DNA from: Phytophthora sp. 'mugwort'
Lineage: Eukaryota > Oomycota > Peronosporomycetes > Peronosporales > Peronosporaceae
NCBI GenBank assembly: GCA_033558025.1
Contig: JAUCEF010000008.1
Span: 3,521,765 to 3,585,764 of the forward strand
Direction: 5' to 3'
Length of the DNA: 64,000 bases
Translations under genes and position numbers: made by a program
Part shown: positions 2,085 through 64,000 of the stretch, piece by piece
Numbering within the stretch: position 1 is the first letter of the stretch
How the letters are laid out: each line of letters begins with the position of its first letter
The notes under the pieces: model-generated
What the model was told of the DNA's origin: nothing
The model's database searches: none
The model's input: only the letters and a program-made list of their open reading frames with translations

Positions 2085-3720
2085 AGGAACATACTCCAAC
2101 CGACGTACCCCAACCAAGCAAGCTGCCATGGGCAAACCCCCACAATCTAGTGCATGCATCTCTCGTGATTGAGTGAATGAACGAATGCGTAGCTCTCAAA
2201 GAAGAAACGAAGCAGCCCAGCTAGGAAGAAGCAAGCACACCGTGATTCTGAAAGTGAGCCAGCGGCATAGATGTCGTGTCGTTAATATACAGGTAGAAAA
2301 CAAAGCTGGGTGTCGTTCGCTCTACCCGTGGTGGTTAGGATTGACATATACACTCCCTTTGAGTGTGACCTCCTTGGGGTAATACTGTACGCACTGAGCA
2401 CACGAAATAATGGATTCGTATCTTTTGATCCGGCAGTCGACTGTAGAAACCGGATTCGGGAAGGTTACAGTACATATACCACCATGTCACTTTTACCGGT
2501 ACAATATGCTGTACTTTACGATGTCATACTCCGCTAGCAGGAAGGCTTTAGGGAGACTAACTAGACCGTATCGCAGGAAACACTCCGTTTGCTGTCAAAT
2601 GCATAATTCGCAACCGCTCGCATGTCACCGAGACACATCATGATCCGGTCGTTGTTGTGCGCCCGGTCTTTGTAGCGTCGGACGCGCATTAATCGGTCGA
2701 TCACCACGGTTTACGGCTTAATCCATTTTCGCTAGCTTGTACTTGGCAATATTGTTGTACTACATGTGCCTTCCAAAAGGGTCTCACTACTGTATACTCA
2801 AAACAAGCAGACCAGGTCGTGCGCGTTACTTCCTGTATGCGCTCCACCGCCTCGAGCAGGCGATTCGTAAGGGTGCCGAGGCCCGTTATCTTTGTCGCTG
2901 TTTGACGCTACAGACGGTACAGTACCGTACGAGCCCGATTTCTGTGTTCGCGGACTTGTGGCGTTGCTGTAGTCGACACCGCTGCACATCGCTATGGCAC
3001 AGTTGTATCTTGCGCAGCTACGCCGTGCGGGTTGGCGCGTCAATTGCGCGGTGTAGTGGCGCATTGCAACGCTCGGGTCGCTACCAACTCTGTTCTGCTC
3101 TGCTCGACTTGAGTTGGCTTGCTCTGCTCGGTAGTGCTGCTGAGTGCCTGCAGCAAAAGACTTGCAGGCTCAGTCCGTGAGCCGCATGCCAACGCACCAT
3201 TTATCGGCGCATTGCGGCATCCGGCATCCAGGAGAGCGAGCAAGAAGCCCACGTGGTAACATGGATCACAACGGCAGGATTTGAGTGGGGGACTCTGCTT
3301 TCTAGCGGTGCGAGTTGCATCGTCGGCCACGCCGCCTGTTTGGGTACGGCCGTGAGTAAGTAGTGAGGCCATGGCATGGCGTAATAGTGAGCGAACACGG
3401 CGACGAGAGCGCCCCCCCCATTTGTTGAGGCTGAGGGCCAAGACACGAGCGAGTGAGCGCGGTGAAGAGACGGTCCTCGCAGTCTAGTTAAGAGAGATCG
3501 GTGTCCCCAGGCGGAGCGCTCTTCTGCAACAACAGGCTGTTGCCGCTTTGTCTAATAGTCAGCCGCTCGCCATCGTTCAACCTGCTCGATACCACCATGC
3601 CACCTCTGCTGTGAAGCCGACCTCCCCTGGACGATTGGGCCGTCCGAGCTCTCTCATTATCCAATTCGTTCTTCCCGCAGCAAACAAGCTCCAATCGAAA
3701 ATCTACTCGTCTTAGCAACC
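2085..3720. other. Spacer between lyase copies (representative of all)
   Basis: The 1.6-kb spacer is repeated in each unit (also 4507-6142, 6929-8564, 9351-10986). It holds the 3' flank of one lyase, a long stretch with no recognisable gene, a poly-C run (3412-3419 here) and the promoter of the next lyase. Open frames of 60-147 codons recur in every unit on both strands, but only because the DNA is repeated. None resembles a known protein or shows domain structure. Confidence 0.7.
3650..3675 (+). promoter_or_regulatory. Inr+FPR-like core promoter, lyase copy 2
   Basis: TCATTAT plus CCAATTCGTTCTTCC occurs 46-71 bp before the ATG at 3721 and is identical in all copies. Confidence 0.55.
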
Positions 3721-15028: not shown

Positions 15029-17989
15029 ATGCTGCAGGTTGTGTCGCCGCCGCTGAAGCGACCCAAGCTTCGTTTCCAGAGCGAAGACGCCTCAGAATCA
15101 AGCAGCCAGGTGTACCTCAAGTCCAATTGGGCGACCACATCGCTGCGTCACCCGGCGTTGCGTTTGTTGTGCTGCCTGGCTCACCTGCTCTTGAGCTTCT
15201 TCCTGGGTGTCTCCTCCCCACTGCTGACATCGCTCAAGAGCCCCGCCCGCTTTCCGGTGTATGGGGAGTTGGCTAAGACTGCGACTACATACTTCACGTG
15301 GCAGAAGCTCGTCTTCCAGAGCGTCGTGAGCGTCTTATTGCTGCTGTTTCTGCGGCTTGTGGCGTATCCGCGGCTGGTTCAGCGCCAATGGAACTGGGAA
15401 ACGTCCTACCGCCACGCGACACAGACGTTCTCGAGGCTATCAAGAGGCTCTGGTGCTGCTAGCGCTGGCCAACATCCAACTCAAACTGGAGCAGGAAGTC
15501 GACGAGATGTGATGGCTCTCCACACTGTTGTTGGCGGTGGTGCGCGTGGTACGCCGGCGGTGCAGCTACAAGTGTGGAACGTCGGGTCTTCTCATGGCTC
15601 TTGGACGATCATGGCTGCAACATTCCCATTCTTCTGGGCTACGCTGATGTATGGTATCAGAAAGATTGTCAGTGAGTCCGCACTCGAGGAGTGGCTCTTC
15701 CCGGAAGAAATGAACGAAGCATGGAGTACTTTAAGTCAGCTCGAGTTGCAACAAGCGCTGTCAACTACTTTACTGGCGATGAGCTGCTTGAAGTTCCTAG
15801 TGACACTAGATTGGGTTCTTCAAGACCGGGAATATAATCACGTTCTTTTTGGAGATTGGCTGTCCCCTGTTCGCCGAGTGTATAACGAGTTTCTGGTCGT
15901 GCGCGTCCTCTGGTGTTGGCTTTCCGTGCTCGGACTTGCTATCGGTGGAGTTTACTTTGGCGCAATTTCAATTGTGCAAAATGAATGGATAAAGTGGAAC
16001 CTCGAAAAGGAAGACGACGTTAATGGCTTGGAGCCGTGGTTGAGCAACATTTCTTGGAACACATTGCTCAGCTCGCTTGTCGTGGCTCTGGATCTGCTTT
16101 GGGTTGTGCAAAATTGGGCGTTTCCGAGCTTTGCTACGCCGCTTGGTTCCAGAATATTTGGCTTACACTTGGATCACATCACGTTCCGATTTGCTGGTCG
16201 CTTCAGAGTATCATTGTCTGGTAAATGGGTTGGGGGATTCCTTGTGATAGCCCTGGTATTACCTATCGAATTCTGTCAGTTCCTACAGATTGCTGACTAT
16301 ACTCCAGAAAAGTACGCGCAGCATGTTCATTTGACGTCGTTCCGAGTTCTTCCATTGAACATCACGCACAATAATTTCATCATTCCTGACAGTCTGGATG
16401 CGTCTAACCAGCTGCTCTTGAACACTGGCTCGTTAAGTCGATATTTCCCGTGGTCCGAATGGGATCGCGCACCCGCCTTCGCTATTTTGCTTCTCGCTTC
16501 GGCTACATTGTTTTGGCTTTCGCGGAAAGAACGCTGTAAAATGTGTTTTGCGGTTTTTCTCGGGCTTTCTGGCACTCAGGAAGGGCGTAACAAAGCATTG
16601 GCAGTGTTGAACAAATCGATGCCCGCTAGTATGAAACGGGGTCTGAGCATTCTAGAACGTTTGCGGGAGCTGTACAAGCTGCGAGCTCGAAGCGACAGTC
16701 TCTGTATTGGTTTGGCAGGACTCTCAGTGCTCACAGTGTGGCTGCAATTTCGAGCGATATGGCGCTCATCAGCGACATACCATCGCGATCTACCGTTGCA
16801 AGCGCCAGGAGAAGCATATGCAGCGTTGCTGCTGCTGATTACGGTTATTCTGCTTTATCAAGTTCACTACAGATACTGCTTGAAAATGGAGATCATGGCA
16901 CTGCGGAATCAGATTCCGCCAGATTGTCGCTACTCTCTTTGGAAGTCACCACGCTTGCTGTTTTTTCCATTTCTTGCAGAATTGCTACTCTGTGGTGTTT
17001 TCCTCCCCCCGTTGGTGCATGGACGGGTATATTTTGATGAAGAGCGCTATTCGTTACCACGATCGACACTAGCAGTAGCTCCAGCATGTCCTAGACCTTT
17101 AACGATGACGACTAGCAGGCAGTCCTGTGAGCTTCAGTATTCCTATCCACTGGAGATTATAAATATGATAGTGCTGGTGCGTCTCTACTGGTTCGCGCGC
17201 GTAATTCGCAACCAGCTATTGAAGCGAATGGTTGCGGATAAGACAGTGAGGATGACGCCGGCGACGCTTACCGGAAAAGACTTGCCAGTAGATTCGCTGT
17301 GGTGGAGTTTCCGAATATCGTTCGCTTTGCAACCGTCCAAGGTGCTTCTCACTTTCTTCATGGCGGTTTGGGTGAGCACAGCCGCTGCGGTCTCCATCTT
17401 CGAGCGACCATTTCCGTCCAAACTAGATGGAGAAGGCCACTCGCTTTGGCTCACCCTCGCCACGATGGCGGGGGTAGGATACGGTGATGCATACCCGATC
17501 ACTATGGGAGGTCGTATTTCTATTGTGCTTGGTGCAGTAGTTGGTGGTTTGGCCTTTACATCTCTTATGATGTCCGAATTTCTTGATTCACTGAAGGGCA
17601 CCAAGCGAGAGCACGCGGTTTTATCTGCGATGGACAAGATGAATAGGGAGCGTGCTTTGCGTGAATGTGCTGCAAGACTAATTTGCGCAGCATGGCAGCA
17701 GCACCACATTCTAAGCACAGAGAGCAGTAGCAGCACGAAGCAACGGAGTAAACAGACGATTGATGGAGAACTGTTAAAGGCTGTGCATCAATTCAAAATG
17801 TGCCGCAAACGGAAACCAATGCAATCCGCCAACGCTGCTCACGTATGCCACAAAAACGGGTTTTCAACCTTCAATTCACCCGAGGTAGAAAAATGGATGG
17901 CAGCAAGACGAGCTGAGACGGCAGCACAACTTGATTCGCTAGAGCAACAACTGGATAGCGTGGAGAAATCATTTCGGGAGATGATGTAA
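15029..17989 (+). CDS. SK-type potassium channel with extended N-terminus
   Basis: The single 986-residue frame encodes a multi-pass membrane protein. The last part matches the plan of small-conductance calcium-activated K+ channels. A probable S4 lies near 712-730 (LVRLYWFARVIRN), S5 near 770-790 ending SIFER, the pore filter at 812-820 (TMAGVGYGD), and S6 near 830-852. After S6 comes an amphipathic segment MDKMNRERALRECAARLICA and then AW, placed like the calmodulin-binding region of SK channels. Residues 945-986 look coiled-coil. Unlike animal SK channels, about 550 residues with roughly seven or eight more hydrophobic segments (for example near 44-64, 90-112, 288-310, 398-418) precede the channel core. 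Potassium selectivity is supported by the filter. Calcium control is inference. The ATG at 15029 is the first in frame. No intron is needed. Confidence 0.85.
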   Translation: MLQVVSPPLKRPKLRFQSEDASESSSQVYLKSNWATTSLRHPALRLLCCLAHLLLSFFLGVSSPLLTSLKSPARFPVYGELAKTATTYFTWQKLVFQSVVSVLLLLFLRLVAYPRLVQRQWNWETSYRHATQTFSRLSRGSGAASAGQHPTQTGAGSRRDVMALHTVVGGGARGTPAVQLQVWNVGSSHGSWTIMAATFPFFWATLMYGIRKIVSESALEEWLFPEEMNEAWSTLSQLELQQALSTTLLAMSCLKFLVTLDWVLQDREYNHVLFGDWLSPVRRVYNEFLVVRVLWCWLSVLGLAIGGVYFGAISIVQNEWIKWNLEKEDDVNGLEPWLSNISWNTLLSSLVVALDLLWVVQNWAFPSFATPLGSRIFGLHLDHITFRFAGRFRVSLSGKWVGGFLVIALVLPIEFCQFLQIADYTPEKYAQHVHLTSFRVLPLNITHNNFIIPDSLDASNQLLLNTGSLSRYFPWSEWDRAPAFAILLLASATLFWLSRKERCKMCFAVFLGLSGTQEGRNKALAVLNKSMPASMKRGLSILERLRELYKLRARSDSLCIGLAGLSVLTVWLQFRAIWRSSATYHRDLPLQAPGEAYAALLLLITVILLYQVHYRYCLKMEIMALRNQIPPDCRYSLWKSPRLLFFPFLAELLLCGVFLPPLVHGRVYFDEERYSLPRSTLAVAPACPRPLTMTTSRQSCELQYSYPLEIINMIVLVRLYWFARVIRNQLLKRMVADKTVRMTPATLTGKDLPVDSLWWSFRISFALQPSKVLLTFFMAVWVSTAAAVSIFERPFPSKLDGEGHSLWLTLATMAGVGYGDAYPITMGGRISIVLGAVVGGLAFTSLMMSEFLDSLKGTKREHAVLSAMDKMNRERALRECAARLICAAWQQHHILSTESSSSTKQRSKQTIDGELLKAVHQFKMCRKRKPMQSANAAHVCHKNGFSTFNSPEVEKWMAARRAETAAQLDSLEQQLDSVEKSFREMM

Positions 17990-24796: not shown

Positions 24797-26728
24797 CGCT
24801 CCCAATTCATATTGTCCATCGCAGATAGAACCGCGTGCTCTCGCTTGGTGCCCTTCAGTGAATCAAGAAATTCGGACATCATAAGAGATGTAAAGGCCAA
24901 ACCACCAACTACTGCACCAAGCACAATAGAAATACGACCTCCCATAGTGATCGGGTATGCATCACCGTATCCTACCCCCGCCATCGTGGCGAGGGTGAGC
25001 CAAAGCGAGTGGCCTTCTCCATCTAGTTTGGACGGAAATGGTCGCTCGAAGATGGAGACCGCAGCGGCTGTGCTCACCCAAACCGCCATGAAGAAAGTGA
25101 GAAGCACCTTGGACGGTTGCAAAGCGAACGATATTCGGAAACTCCACCACAGCGAATCTACTGGCAAGTCTTTTCCGGTAAGCGTCGCCGGCGTCATCCT
25201 CACTGTCTTATCCGCAACCATTCGCTTCAATAGCTGGTTGCGAATTACGCGCGCGAACCAGTAGAGACGCACCAGCACTATCATATTTATAATCTCCAGT
25301 GGATAGGAATACTGAAGCTCACAGGACTGCCTGCTAGTCGTCATCGTTAAAGGTCTAGGACATGCTGGAGCTACTGCTAGTGTCGATCGTGGTAACGAAT
25401 AGCGCTCTTCATCAAAATATACCCGTCCATGCACCAACGGGGGGAGGAAAACACCACAGAGTAGCAATTCTGCAAGAAATGGAAAAAAAACAGCAAGCGT
25501 GGTGACTTCCAAAGAGAGCAGCGACAATCTGGCGGAATCTGATTCCGCAGTGCCATGATCTCCATTTTCAAGCAGTATCTGTAGTGAACTTGATAAAGCA
25601 GAATAACCGTAATCAGCAGCAGCAACGCTGCATATGCTTCTCCTGGCGCTTGCAACGGTAGATCGCGATGGTATGTCGCTGATGAGCGCCATATCGCTCG
25701 AAATTGCAGCCACACTGTGAGCACTGAGAGTCCTGCCAAACCAATACAGAGACTGTCGCTTCGAGCTCGCAGCTTGTACAGCTCCCGCAAACGTTCTAGA
25801 ATGCTCAGACCCCGTTTCATACTAGCGGGCATCGATTTGTTCAACACTGCCAATGCTTTGTTACGCCCTTCCTGAGTGCCAGAAAGCCCGAGAAAAACCG
25901 CAAAACACATTTTACAGCGTTCTTTCCGCGAAAGCCAAAACAATGTAGCCGAAGCGAGAAGCAAAATAGCGAAGGCGGGTGCGCGATCCCATTCGGACCA
26001 CGGGAAATATCGACTTAACGAGCCAGTGTTCAAGAGCAGCTGGTTAGACGCATCCAGACTGTCAGGAATGATGAAATTATTGTGCGTGATGTTCAATGGA
26101 AGAACTCGGAACGACGTCAAATGAACATGCTGCGCGTACTTTTCTGGAGTATAGTCAGCAATCTGTAGGAACTGACAGAATTCGATAGGTAATACCAGGG
26201 CTATCACAAGGAATCCCCCAACCCATTTACCAGACAATGATACTCTGAAGCGACCAGCAAATCGGAACGTGATGTGATCCAAGTGTAAGCCAAATATTCT
26301 GGAACCAAGCGGCGTAGCAAAGCTCGGAAACGCCCAATTTTGCACAACCCAAAGCAGATCCAGAGCCACGACAAGCGAGCTGAGCAATGTGTTCCAAGAA
26401 ATGTTGCTCAACCACGGCTCCAAGCCATTAACGTCGTCTTCCTTTTCGAGGTTCCACTTTATCCATTCATTTTGCACAATTGAAATTGCGCCAAAGTAAA
26501 CTCCACCGATAGCAAGTCCGAGCACGGAAAGCCAACACCAGAGGACGCGCACGACCAGAAACTCGTTATACACTCGGCGAACAGGGGACAGCCAATCTCC
26601 AAAAAGAACGTGATTATATTCCCGGTCTTGAAGAACCCAATCTAGTGTCACTAGGAACTTCAAGCAGCTCATCGCCAGTAAAGTAGTTGGCAGCGCTTGT
26701 TGCAACTCGAGCTGACTTAATGAACAGC

Positions 26729-29723: not shown

Positions 29724-31100
29724 ATACGCTTTGCATCTAGCGATCAAGTACAAGAAAAATTATTAATTCTTGTTCCTCGGACTGGTCGACCTCGCAGTGA
29801 CCAACGCGTACATCGTGTATAACGCTCACCGTGCTGCTGATGGACAACGCAAGATGAAGCATGTCAAGTTTCTGAAGACTCTGCACTTGCAGCTTTGTCA
29901 GCTGAAGGACGAATACTGGACTGGGTTTCTCAACTATGAAAGCGTCAATGCCATGCCCTCGAAGTCGCGATCGCAATCACAGCAGACGCAGCACACACGG
30001 GTGCAGAACGATGAATGGAGGGCTGGGAACAACCAGACCGGGCGAAAGCGGAGAACTCGCGTTTGCAAGGTCTGCTCTTTGCTAAAAGGCACTGATGATG
30101 TACGCGGTGGTGACTCATCTATCTACTGTAGCGACTGCAAATTGACGATGTCGTCGAAGGGACCAAAGGCGTTAAGAGTCTTCCTTTGCGATAAGCCCCA
30201 TCGTGGACACAAGGTGATCCCGATTACGTGCTTCGATCTGTGGCATAAAGGCCGACGCAACGGGACATTGCTTCCGAGCGAGGCACGCAAACGGAAGATT
30301 TGTGCGCGGATGCCAGCAAAGGGGCCTCGCACCGAGAGCGGGGAAGATGAAAGTGTAGCGTCTTGCCAGGACGCGAGCGATGCCAATGCATCGGGCGAGA
30401 AATCTACGGCAGTGGGACAGCACGAACCGAATCGAGGGCGTGTAGCCGAGACTGAGGACTAAGCAGTTGTCCCACTGCAATCTTGTTTTTTGTTATAATA
30501 TAGCTGTGCTCATCACGTCAACTTGGCTGCTATCATATGTATTTGGCTGTATCGACTATGACTTTGCTGGCACGACTCTGATACTCATTGACAAATCTTT
30601 ATCCCACGGTTGGACTGGTTTTGCCCAAGCATATACATGTTTTGGCGGTAACGCGTCATTTCAACCAGTATTCATCTCCACTATCATGGAGCTACACGAT
30701 TAGCGAGGAGCCAGATTGCAAGGTGTAGGTTATTGACGTGCCTATCCACGATTCATGTTACCAGAACATCTAAAGTTTTGTAGGCAAACCCTTACCCGAA
30801 GATACAGGTTTTCTTAGTCCGATGGTGGCGCTGGAGGACAATCGCGTTCAAGGGGTAAAGTACTCCATGCTTCGTTCATTTCTTCCGGGAAGAGACACTC
30901 CTCGAGTGCGGACCCACTCACAATCTTTCTGATACCATACATCAGCATAGCCCAGAAGAATGGGAATGTTGCAGCCATGAACGTCCAAGAGCCATGAGAA
31001 GACCCGACGTTCCACTCTTGTAGCTGCACCGCTGGCGTACCACGCGCATCACCGCCAACAACAGTGCGGAGAGCCATCAGATCTCGTCGACTGCCTGCTC

Positions 31101-31245
31101 TAAACCCTAAACCCTACACACAAAATCCTAAATCCTAGAACCTAGGCTATAAACCCTAAAATATAAATCCTAGTCCTAAACCCTAAACTCTAAATCTTAA
31201 GCCTTAAACCCTAAACAGTTAGCCCTAAACCTTAAACCCTAAACC
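31101..31245. repeat. Interstitial telomere-like tract, (CCCTAAA)n, degenerate
   Basis: About six perfect CCCTAAA units are mixed with variants (atcctaa, tataaaccctaaaa, cttaaaccctaaac). The C-rich strand is on top, the opposite of the terminal tract at 63324-64000. It starts at the exact end of the inverted duplication. It would be the normal orientation for a left chromosome end. Confidence 0.92.
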
Positions 31246-60660: not shown

Positions 60661-61750
60661 GAAATGTTCTCTAAATGGGGAAATTTTCAGTAATCGCAGC
60701 TTTAATTTCCTCAAAATAAAACACGGGTGAGTTTTTCACAGAGTGGACAAGTATCCACTGTTGGCGTCGATTGCTCAGTGGAATTTCACAATTCCGACCT
60801 CGTCGGAGCGCTCATGGAGTATTTCAAGTTTATCCAAATGGCACGCAGAAATCGCTTGTGCAACAGCACTGTGATAAAGTTGGCACTATATATTTATCCT
60901 AACCAAGGCCGAAGGATGCACTTGAACCTATCGTCTTCGATACTGTAGCAGATCTAATTGCTGAAGACAAGTGAATCGCTGATTCGTGCGCCAGAGAACC
61001 CCATTGATGCTGACTTTCTGGCTCAGATTCGCCAGCTCGAGATTACTATGGACAACTCGGACCAGATCCGTGTTGGTGAGTGGGACTTGGATGGTGCTCA
61101 CTGGGATGACGATGAGCATATTCCGAAAGACGTCAGCTCGCAGCAAACCGAGTACGTTTTTTTGTTAACGGCTTCGATTGTGACGTTAGCATCTAGACCT
61201 CCGTCTTTAATGAGTTCTCCTTCTATTTAATTATTTGAAGTAACTGCATGGAGTGGGTTAACTTTCCCTAATAGTATTGAGGGTTGCCGCGTTTTGGTAC
61301 TGTGTACCAGTAACCGGTTAACCCGACCGGTCCAACACGATCCCGCGATGTTTACGGCACGTTGTTTACGCAACCGATGATTAGACGAGTAGGATGATTG
61401 GACGAGTGCGGAGTGTTGGTGATTGGATGCACCAAATGATTGGATGCAGGGCTACATATCTATGTGGTGGACTAGGTAGTGCAAGCTCCGATAAATCAAT
61501 CACTTTCGAATCTTCCTTCTTCAGCTCAAGTGGTCTTCACTCCGGTCCCCGCACCCAAGTGCAGAACTCCCTCCGCTCAACCCAAGCCTCGCTTCTAGAC
61601 CTCAACACCTTTAACAAATAGCTCTTCATAACGTAGCGTTTCGACTAGCAGCAGAAAGTTTTGGCTTAAGTAAAGTTAATGTTCAAAAGCCCGGGAAATC
61701 CAGAGCTGTTGAAGTGGCACCACTCTTGCACGGTTCACGAACATATGTAG
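60661..61750. other. Unrecognised plus-strand frames and spacer
   Basis: Frames at 60727-60948 (LVGALMEYFKFIQMARRNRL) and 60958-61230 (IDADFLAQIRQLEITMDNSD, VGEWDLDGAHWDDDEHIPKD) may be parts of one decayed protein. I know no family for them. 61250-61750 shows no gene. Confidence 0.35.
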
Positions 61751-61783: not shown

Positions 61784-61816
61784 GATTGGTTGATCACTCT
61801 TGGGTGGTTCGGAGGG

Positions 61817-61886
61817 TTTGTGTCTTGAGACTGAGGCTTGACGCGACAAAAACAGTTGTATTTGGTTGTCCAAAGGGTCGGGAGGT
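61817..61886. repeat. 70-bp repeat, internal copy
   Basis: Identical by eye to 63254-63323: tttgtgtcttgagactgagg ... gggtcgggaggt. It continues here into cggcctctcc, whereas the other copy runs straight into the telomere. Confidence 0.93.
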
Positions 61887-62106
61887 CGGCCTCTCCGGTG
61901 GTCCTTTCGCTTGGGCTTCTTCAGTGGACGGCAAATTGAGAAGTGAGCGTCCAGCTGAAGCTGTTCTGCTACTGCTAGCTACTCACTACACATGTAAGAT
62001 TCATGCATCTTGGTTTCTCGAATCTTCAACTTGCGTGCGTGGGTGCACTTGAATCTTCGAGAAGTGGGTGTGGGTTAAAACTAGATTTGTTGGGTGAATG
62101 TACCCC

Positions 62107-62160
62107 GAAAATCCAGTTCTGTACCCAGAGAATCCAATTGTGTACCCAGAGAATCCAGCT
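62107..62160. repeat. Short tandem repeat, about 21-22 bp unit
   Basis: The unit agaatccaRttYtgtaccca occurs two and a half times. Nothing else is known of it. Confidence 0.65.
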
Positions 62161-62257
62161 GGGAATTTTCGCAGTGCGAATCTTCAACCGTGTAGAATTT
62201 TCCCGCTGGGAATCTTCAACATCACGGATGCTGGTTGTGACGCGCCACCGTGTCAAA

Positions 62258-62271
62258 GGGTTTAGGGTTTA
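62258..62271. repeat. Short interstitial telomere repeat, proximal to RT
   Basis: gggtttagggttta, two units in the same orientation as the chromosome end. It touches the 3' end of the reverse transcriptase frame. Confidence 0.85.
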
Positions 62272-63167
62272 CCCCCCGTCCTCTGTACAGACCGATCGCT
62301 TCCGCTTTCTTGATCGAAGTGCGAGGCGGTCTGCAGGAGACGGGGAGAATGTCGGTGGTAGTCTTGTTGGGCACAGCTTGCGCTTGAGAGTCGGAGGCTT
62401 CAGATAGCACAGGCTGACTTGGTCGATCCCGAATTTCTTTGTTTCGGTTTCGAGTGCTTGGACGTCAAGGAGTCTCTTCAGTTCCGCGCCGGACGGTCCA
62501 TTCGGATCGTAGGGAACTTTAAAGAAGACCTTGGATGTCCGCGGCCTTGGTGCTCTTGTTTCCTCCAGCGCAGCTCGGAAGATTGGTAGCAGTTTGGTGG
62601 CTCGATAGCCACGACTTTGCAGTCGTTGCAGAAGCAGATTAACGACCGACTTGAAGTCGTTCGCGTCTGGGTTCTGCATTGCGTACTTCTTCACGAGTCC
62701 GTAGATCAACCCTTTGAGCACGCCAGGCGGATGTGCGCTGGCAGCTGGAAGGTAGAGGTACAGATTTAGCGCTTTTTGGTGCGTCTTGGTTCGAAGTCTG
62801 TTTTCGGTCTTGATGATCCAGAGATCGAGAAACGGCGCTTCGGTCAGACTCTGTTCGTGTGTGAACTTGAGTCTTGACAGACGCGTGAACTTGGCGAAGA
62901 ACCTTTGGAGTGCAAAAGGATCTTCCGTTCTTGGGCGCCAGATGATCAATCCATCATCGATGTATCGACGGAAGTACACGAGGGATTCTTGGAACTCTGG
63001 TGTCAGCTGGCTCTCAAAGTGCGCAAGGTAGAGTGAGGCAAAAGCTGGTGCAACCGGAGTACCCATTGCGGTACCTGTGATTTGGTGCCACATCGTGTCG
63101 CCGAACTGGAAGTAGTTGAACCTCAGAATGAGGTGTAGTCCTTCCAGGATGGCAGTCTTCCATCGAT
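62269..63167 (-). pseudogene. Penelope-like reverse transcriptase, 5'-truncated
   Basis: The minus-strand frame is open from the telomere repeat at 63168 to a TAA at 62269-62271, about 299 codons; the first ATG is at 63093. Motifs in order: LHLILRFNYFQFGD, then GTAMGTPVAPAFASLYLAHF (RT motif with GTPVAP), YFRRYIDDGLIIW (catalytic YIDD), LKFTHEQSLTEAPFLDLWI (primer grip region), and LNLYLYLPAASAHPPGVLKG (typical of Penelope-like elements). The upstream RT part with the first catalytic Asp, and any N-terminal domain, are missing. No GIY-YIG nuclease domain follows; the C-terminus is basic (RLALRSRKRKRSVCTEDGG). The frame is intact otherwise, so the insertion is young. This suits an endonuclease-deficient, telomere-attached element (Athena/Coprina type). 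Against that, only one copy is seen. Confidence 0.85.
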
Positions 63168-63187
63168 GGGTTTAGGGTTTAGGGTTG
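63168..63187. repeat. Short interstitial telomere repeat, distal to RT
   Basis: gggtttagggtttagggttg, nearly three units. It replaces the 5' part of the reverse transcriptase gene at the exact break. Confidence 0.9.
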
Positions 63188-63253
63188 TGAAACGAACGAA
63201 GGCGAAGCCGGAGTGAGTGCAAACGCGAGGCAGCGCGAAGCCGTGGCGAGCGC
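63188..63253. other. Unique segment between telomere repeats
   Basis: 66 bases, tgaaacgaacgaaggcgaag ... gtggcgagcg, with no match elsewhere in the window. With the next 70 bases it forms a second insertion between telomere stretches. Confidence 0.6.
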
Positions 63254-63323
63254 TTTGTGTCTTGAGACTGAGGCTTGACGCGACAAAAACAGTTGTATTT
63301 GGTTGTCCAAAGGGTCGGGAGGT
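63254..63323. repeat. 70-bp repeat, terminal copy
   Basis: The same 70 bases as 61817-61886, ending gggaggt at the first telomere repeat. Confidence 0.93.
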
Positions 63324-64000
63324 TTAAGGTTTAAGGTTTAGGGTTTAGGGTTTAGGGTTTAGGGTTTAGGGTTTAGGGTTTAGGGTTTAGGGTTTAGGGT
63401 TTAGGGTTTAGGGTTTAGGGTTTAGGGTTTAGGGTTTAGGGTTTAGGGTTTAGGGTTTAGGGTTTAGGGTTTAGGGTTTAGGGTTTAGGGTTTAGGGTTT
63501 AGGGTTTAGGGTTTAGGGTTTAGGGTTTAGGGTTTAGGGTTTAGGGTTTAGGGTTTAGGGTTTAGGGTTTAGGGTTTAGGGTTTAGGGTTTAGGGTTTAG
63601 GGTTTAGGGTTTAGGGTTTAGGGTTTAGGGTTTAGGGTTTAGGGTTTAGGGTTTAGGGTTTAGGGTTTAGGGTTTAGGGTTTAGGGTTTAGGGTTTAGGG
63701 TTTAGGGTTTAGGGTTTAGGGTTTAGGGTTTAGGGTTTAGGGTTTAGGGTTTAGGGTTTAGGGTTTAGGGTTTAGGGTTTAGGGTTTAGGGTTTAGGGTT
63801 TAGGGTTTAGGGTTTAGGGTTTAGGGTTTAGGGTTTAGGGTTTAGGGTTTAGGGTTTAGGGTTTAGGGTTTAGGGTTTAGGGTTTAGGGTTTAGGGTTTA
63901 GGGTTTAGGGTTTAGGGTTTAGGGTTTAGGGTTTAGGGTTTAGGGTTTAGGGTTTAGGGTTTAGGGTTTAGGGTTTAGGGTTTAGGGTTTAGGGTTTAGG
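63324..64000. repeat. Terminal telomere, (TTTAGGG)n
   Basis: About 95 perfect TTTAGGG units from 63337, after two TTTAAGG variants at 63323-63336, run to the window end. The G-rich strand points outward, so this is the right end of a chromosome or contig. TTTAGGG is the repeat reported for oomycetes and plants. Confidence 0.99.

Follow-up and report, generated by a model that had tools for sequence, protein, structure and literature searches.

Endonuclease-deficient retroelements associated with telomeres, namely Athena of bdelloid rotifers and its fungal and protist relatives, were reportedly described by Gladyshev and Arkhipova in 2007, and the abstract of that paper reportedly names stramenopiles. 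PMC12477816 states that Penelope-like elements had not been reported earlier in that paper's supergroup, which conflicts with the 2007 abstract. According to PMC3846280, telomerase and Penelope-like reverse transcriptases (RTs) are of common ancestry, and endonuclease (EN)-deficient elements of protists and fungi are without the terminal-repeat organisation of animal Penelope, and steps in the mobilisation of Penelope-like elements still await experimental proof (PMC11167929). Here, we analysed 64,000 nucleotides from Phytophthora sp. 'mugwort' (the window), the right end of contig C8 (3,585,764 bases; window position 64000 is the contig end) in an assembly of 86.26 Mb and 154 contigs. As our best explanation, the RT copy near this end is likely a remnant of an endonuclease-deficient, telomere-attaching Penelope-like retroelement, called family A here, and for the family as a whole this reading is well supported by sequence comparison. 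Contigs are labelled C with a number and their left and right ends L and R; U denotes the terminal repeat and O the body, both in element orientation, and family B is a second family.

Family A resembles Athena-type elements in that no GIY-YIG domain was found, in its two open reading frames (ORFs) and telomeric location, in telomere-capped 5'-truncated ends and in telomeric repeats that lie in reverse complement close to the 3' end (PMC3846280, PMC6431247). Unlike them, it has direct terminal repeats flanked on both sides by telomere-like stretches and a host-type core promoter, and it is present at nearly every chromosome end. Terminons, the giant Athena-type elements, likewise carry a reverse-complement telomeric stretch on the 3' side, are truncated at the 5' end by short telomeric repeats and occur in head-to-tail arrays (PMC6431247), whereas family A is below 4 kb as U-O-U, with no accessory genes seen and no Rfam hammerhead in the loci searched. 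Canonical EN-containing Penelope/Poseidon elements with pseudo-LTRs (LTR, long terminal repeat) share terminal direct repeats with an Inr-like sequence and partial tandems (PMC3846280, PMC11167929), but they carry GIY-YIG and may have target-site duplications. Drosophila HeT-A/TAHRE also form head-to-tail arrays at chromosome ends, with a 3'-region promoter that serves the next copy (PMC5537684); they are, however, non-LTR retrotransposons of a host without telomerase, whereas here a telomerase-type RT occurs together with a telomerase gene match. By analogy, family A would work like HeT-A/TAHRE and is not a member. Telomeric Penelope-like elements are already known; the telomere-bordered U-O-U arrangement was not found described. 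No title or abstract opening reporting a telomeric Penelope-like element in an oomycete was found in a search outside which most subscription literature lay, and the word 'Penelope' has 0 occurrences in the main texts of several oomycete genome papers.

Organisation of family A and its reverse transcriptase

Full copies consist, in order, of U (about 510 bp), 18 nt of telomeric sequence, O (2,893 bp in the reference), a stop codon within a telomeric stretch, a second U and a short telomeric tail. With joints classed by text pattern, the stretch between U and body is 18 nt in 22 of 22 cases, and a 23rd joint, C12L, was classed apart with 15 nt. ORF1 and the longer RT frame (ORF2) lie in different, overlapping frames in 13 of 14 near-full bodies, and C16L has a single frame of 952 aa; in C7L and C7R breaks interrupt the RT frame. 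A coiled coil is possible for ORF1, hinted at only by bZIP structures that match it weakly (E 0.017 and worse).

The RT is of the telomerase/Penelope kind, with a fold closest to that of telomerase, and its first organism-named relative comes from Pythium oligandrum (49% identity over 96%). Against Pfam RVT_1, the window frame matches weakly (E 0.0066) and fails the curated cut-off, and a longer family A copy reaches E 4.2e-05, still under the cut-off, which the relative P0001 passes. The sequence-only reading, made earlier from the letters of the window, had proposed an element without endonuclease, against which a linked GIY-YIG domain in full-length copies would speak. None was found: the domain was absent from one full family A frame and from all relatives scanned (42 of 42), family B being outside the scan. 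The genome contains 27 GIY-YIG matches; among those listed, the one closest to an RT copy is on C11, at a distance of about 34 kb. The GIY-YIG loci L079-L082, inspected by eye as possible EN-containing outgroups, showed no RT-like frame. Membership among LTR retrotransposons was rejected, as Pfam, run on the 952-aa frame with E up to 10, found no gag, protease, RNase H or integrase. Relatives in IMG/VR were sought and none was confirmed.

Judged from substitution rates, the RT is under purifying selection, with a mean dN (nonsynonymous) of 0.0053, a mean dS (synonymous) of 0.0191 and a ratio of 0.28 in the C-terminal 885 bases of family A over 128 pairs, which are non-independent owing to exchange between ends. 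The set started from 24 copies (3 without a text anchor and 3 with in-frame stops; 18 kept), giving 153 pairs, of which 7 identical pairs, 17 involving C17L out of register and 1 without a usable value were left out.

Family B comprises four RT copies, 56% identical to the window RT. In C13R, the single copy translated, it has two frames. The family B stop codon falls within telomeric sequence, and the tail measures 147 bp; at C5R the tail is present a second time, on the 5' side, so family B too seems to have a terminal repeat. The family B tail (for example C13R 3316-3462) also holds a hammerhead-like string with an INR match nearby and no Rfam hit. Rfam hammerheads were found neither in 5 loci at E up to 1 nor in 4 loci at E up to 5; a hand pattern fits the B tail, with a poor stem II, and U and O once each with a looser core, and a hammerhead ribozyme is not claimed.

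Chromosome ends, joints and the predicted RNA

A genome-wide protein search gave 41 matches to the window RT, in which fragments of one copy are counted separately and all counts are lower bounds. The sequence-only reading had allowed that mostly internal copies would tell against it; nearly all matches proved terminal with the 5' end outward. The distance to a contig end is at most 12 kb for 40 of the 41, and 39 of the 40 have the outward orientation, one of them on C25 (101 kb), whose left stretch is partly masked and has no starting telomere. Exact matches to the U head number 58 genome-wide, all within 12 kb of contig ends, and those to the U tail number 53, 51 of them within this distance and the others in the C2 copy and in a solo piece at C11:18.8 kb.

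Both ends of 17 large contigs (34 ends) were surveyed. Telomere tracts of 426-995 nt are present on 32 of them; C10 left starts masked and C13 left has none. At 31 of the 32 telomere-bearing ends, family A or B is the first module inside the tract, with C8 left holding only a short rearranged piece. At four of these 31 ends, over 30 nt separate the first module from the measured tract, filled by variant telomere-like repeats (C2R, C3R, C14R) or by variant repeats plus family B leader sequence (C11R). Only C18 right departs: its first module is about 6.2 kb further inward and reversed. In the final 11 kb of C18, telomere-like repeats occur together with a complete U-O-U copy that is oriented as at a left end although it is near the right one, an arrangement that may reflect fusion, inversion or misassembly. 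Among small contigs, 12 more left ends were checked and none of the 12 showed a telomere (4 wholly masked), right ends and the remaining small contigs being outside the survey. At C13 right, tRNA matches spaced about 736 bases apart (L050 1-47, 711-783, 1447-1519) lie immediately internal to the element.

Truncated 5' ends capped by telomeric repeats are found at C1L, C2L, C9R, C17R and others, and complete U 3' ends, located by a text pattern that itself requires AACCC, are followed by at least 9 nt of telomeric repeat; all complete U ends viewed as sequence have such repeats too. At 33 joints other than U-to-body (the 15-nt variant at C12L left out), the perfect telomeric stub has a median of 19 nt and a range of 9-41 nt, except for C9L with 191 nt and 87 more after a break; some stubs continue as imperfect repeats. 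If intact telomeres were the usual primer, long inner stubs would be expected. Their shortness suggests addition at eroded or broken ends, or alternatively later shrinkage of the inner tracts.

All 56 listed U1 boundaries are preceded by CTAAACCC in a single phase, a 57th listed string being a chance match inside C2. Telomere register was considered as proof of template-encoded seeds and set aside as suggestive only: truncated, telomere-capped ends also favour few registers, so a preference of telomerase could explain the U1 phase. Solo U copies were likewise not used as proof of stopping at the stretch, since U-U recombination would yield the same.

U appears to carry the oomycete core promoter, with a start predicted at about U314. 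Using the INR (YCAYTYY), FPR (MWTTTNC) and DPEP definitions and the 2-nt INR-FPR spacing given in PMC3599244, U312-327 is an exact INR, 2 nt and FPR, and DPEP matches occur at U336 and U21. The combined INR+FPR pattern occurs 3 times in the window against 0.14 expected, and 49 of the 51 mapped U copies reaching across the site retain it. A hand list contains 16 units whose 5' end falls inside U next to telomeric DNA, some of these ends sharing ancestry. Fourteen of the ends are at or after U314, including three at U315, and two are upstream (U6, U101), a bias with a binomial P of 8e-5 (0.004 when 11 distinct sites are counted); the list omits U1 ends and two cases that lack telomeric DNA 5' of the end, U293 at C10R and the C11 solo piece.

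The two U of each copy were compared on either side of U314, a split fixed from the promoter position before testing. In 11 full copies, U1-313 gives 0.0073 within a copy against 0.0185 with others (p 5e-5), while U314-447 gives 0.0110 against 0.0122 (p 0.15). After three copies identical to a fourth were dropped (n=8), U1-313 gives 0.0100 against 0.0200 (p 0.0001) and U314-447 gives 0.0151 against 0.0155 (p 0.43); with all four dropped, p is 0.0016 and 0.64. With truncated copies added (n=10), U1-313 gives p 0.0001 and U314-508 gives 0.0097 against 0.0124 (p 0.20), and for U380-447 (n=11) p is 0.085. Followed in windows of 90 bases, the signal declines around U300-390, and U151-240 is also non-significant (p 0.13). 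Two copies at C3R have one U in common. The pattern suggests LTR-like regeneration of the 5' U: likeness confined to U1-313 favours strand transfer over plain read-through. Conversion between ends could imitate the signal, and the copies are few.

From these traces we infer where transcription starts, that the strand is transferred and that short ends are used. Transcription would begin at the INR in U near U314 (predicted RNA start U313-316, 3' end within CACAACCCTAAACCC). The RNA 3' tail (...CACAACCCUAAACCC) would base-pair to the 3' terminus of an eroded telomere or broken chromosome, and the telomerase-like RT would copy outward from the chromosome end. Copying would halt early, giving a 5' truncation, or at the RNA 5' end in U, or it would switch into another U and proceed to the telomere-like stretch, after which telomerase or another element would extend the new end. 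A more far-reaching reading, advanced tentatively and at somewhat under even confidence, joins telomerase-style priming to LTR-style replication: with RNA from U314, the first strand would transfer to the 3' U, copy U313 to U1 and end at the stretch by the stop codon, the element would bring its own telomere seed for telomerase, and nearly every end of this species would be maintained or repaired with it. A partial match to the telomerase RNA-binding domain lies at C7:8589210-8589377, and the host seems to have a telomerase gene.

Alternatives and points against telomere attachment

An explanation that is unlikely but deserves serious weight derives complete 5' U copies from read-through RNA of tandem copies with internal RT initiation and no strand transfer, as proposed for anole Poseidon. 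It is compatible with the best explanation except for the transfer step. Tandem arrays with one common U exist (C3R), U pieces are 3'-truncated onto telomeric stubs at C7R and C16R, and internal initiation in vitro is reported for an EN-containing Penelope-like element (PMC11167929); tandem RNA, however, does not predict likeness of own U copies restricted to U1-313.

Several observations weigh against an EN-deficient Penelope-like element that attaches to telomeres. Among the 120 listed RT relatives there is no labelled Penelope reference for a tree. One RT match is interstitial, 556 kb from the contig end (C2:2655294), another is reversed, 7.4 kb from the end (C18:4914780), and a solo U piece is 18.7 kb inside C11 with no telomere on its 5' side. 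Of 22 innermost joints, 11 reach U508, the canonical 3' end, and 11 stop earlier, including that of the window, which slightly lowered our confidence in the best explanation. Recombination clearly moves element pieces too: four full copies have identical U's (C5R, C9L two, C10R), and the U372-stub-O1983 structure of the window is found again inside C10R. The early-stopping joints at C17R and others may be internal deletions; at C5L the U tail reappears past an internal gap, and the C7R joint meets a telomeric stub. The interstitial C2 copy (C2:2652500-2658500) is rearranged and contains inverted O pieces. The solo piece (C11:18660-18840) is a 3' U piece with a short telomeric tail set in non-telomeric DNA, as repair of a break would leave.

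In subtelomeric repeats spread by recombination, yeast Y' elements are the comparison case. It is improbable that family A is likewise an old element moved between ends by break-induced replication or gene conversion, without current reverse transcription. A truncation junction common to C8R and C10R, tandem U duplicates in C2R, the identical U pairs and the half of innermost joints missing the canonical 3' end would fit this. Differing 5' truncation points that adjoin telomeric DNA, the 11 complete 3' ends with mostly dissimilar inner flanks (7 of 231 pairs similar over 37-403 bp at 75-90%, including those of the window and C9R), the purifying selection on the RT and the fading of own-U similarity near the predicted RNA start argue against it.

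Repeats misjoined at contig ends are a very improbable source of the pattern: C18R and the interstitial C2 copy appear rearranged, but grammar, orientation and spacings are identical at 31 of 32 ends and the inner flanks mostly differ across the 22 joints compared. Finally, there is hardly any chance that the window copy was primed on telomere at 62258, where a TTTAGGG stretch adjoins the 3' side of the frame, since mapped copies that reach the stop codon have a similar stretch after ORF2, followed by U.

The window copy and its surroundings

The sequence-only reading had located a minus-strand RT frame between two TTTAGGG stretches, and these are present as claimed: the frame (300 aa) spans 62269-63171 and the stretches 62257-62271 and 63168-63187. 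A 14-base double telomeric repeat with at most one mismatch is expected 0.01 times per shuffled window, and the contig terminus itself falls within a TTTAGGG tract. The frame covers the RT from before GTAMGTPVAP through YIDD, the thumb and the C-terminal domain, half an RT that starts past the first catalytic motif. That reading had seen in the open frame a sign of a recent event. Over 885 bases, the frame differs by 5-7 changes from 13 of 17 other copies and by 10-15 from 3, with 1 out of register; the frame is open as described, and it is only half an RT.

The inner stretch, read earlier as the 3' edge of the element, turned out to be internal, as U continues beyond it. Such a stretch is present in all mapped copies that reach the stop codon (15 or 22 nt in most). 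The real 3' end of the window copy is truncated onto non-telomeric DNA (U ends at 447, position 61812), so a telomere need not have primed this copy. Telomere priming, which the earlier reading had proposed for it, is supported at the level of the family, with its terminal location, outward 5' ends, capped truncations and telomeric repeats past complete 3' ends, and is not supported for the window copy. On the 5' side, the truncation does meet telomeric sequence, the 19-nt stub, and 'more telomere' follows as that reading had it, except that a U piece between stub and tract was overlooked. This piece is a separate, strongly 5'-truncated addition. The block U372 - 19 nt - O1983 is also found inside C10R, which indicates that it was moved by exchange between ends as well. 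The window copy (O 1983 onward) would have been capped by the stub, then by the 137-bp second addition and then by telomere; its inner 3' end would reflect either priming on a non-telomeric end from a site internal to the RNA, or trimming by later recombination. Coordinates are collected in Table 1.

Table 1. Parts of the family A copy and adjoining telomere in the window
Feature	Position	Strand	Basis
Terminal telomere (TTTAGGG)n, two TTTAAGG variants at inner edge, reaches contig end	63324..64000	+	sequence
U 372-508, 3' terminal-repeat piece, 137 bp, 97.8% identical to reference U	63187..63323	-	alignment
19-nt telomeric stub linking 137-bp addition to truncated RT copy	63168..63187	.	sequence
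O 1983-2893, C-terminal half of ORF2, 5'-truncated	62258..63168	-	mapping
Internal telomere-like stretch, 15 nt, ORF2 stop codon at 62269-62271	62257..62271	-	sequence
3' terminal repeat U 1-447, final ~61 bp absent, abuts non-telomeric DNA	61812..62257	-	mapping
INR + 2 nt + FPR match (TCACTTCTCAATTTGC) within U, predicted start U314	61931..61946	-	pattern

Further inward, the sequence at 61350-61617 recurs many times with 97-98% identity, the copies forming clusters in the interior of other contigs (C18 1.25-1.30 Mb, C12 2.07-2.10 Mb, C14 2.89-2.93 Mb and others), and by comparison with PMC7082073 it is possibly the LTR of a centromere-clustered Copia-like element near a telomere. The window also contains a potassium-channel-like gene at 15029-17989 (+) with a shorter inverted copy at 25377-26672 (-), a gene that best matches Phytophthora proteins (P. 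pseudosyringae, 74% over 100%) and a degenerate interstitial telomere-like tract at 31098-31243, with CCCTAAA on the + strand.

In summary, the same chromosome ends of an oomycete appear to be served both by telomerase and by a relative of it that lacks endonuclease, and priming, truncation, capping and possibly strand transfer have left traces in the sequence of dozens of copies. The short inner stubs make the rescue of eroded or broken ends testable, and the repeat that adjoins telomeres is given a name for oomycete genome projects.
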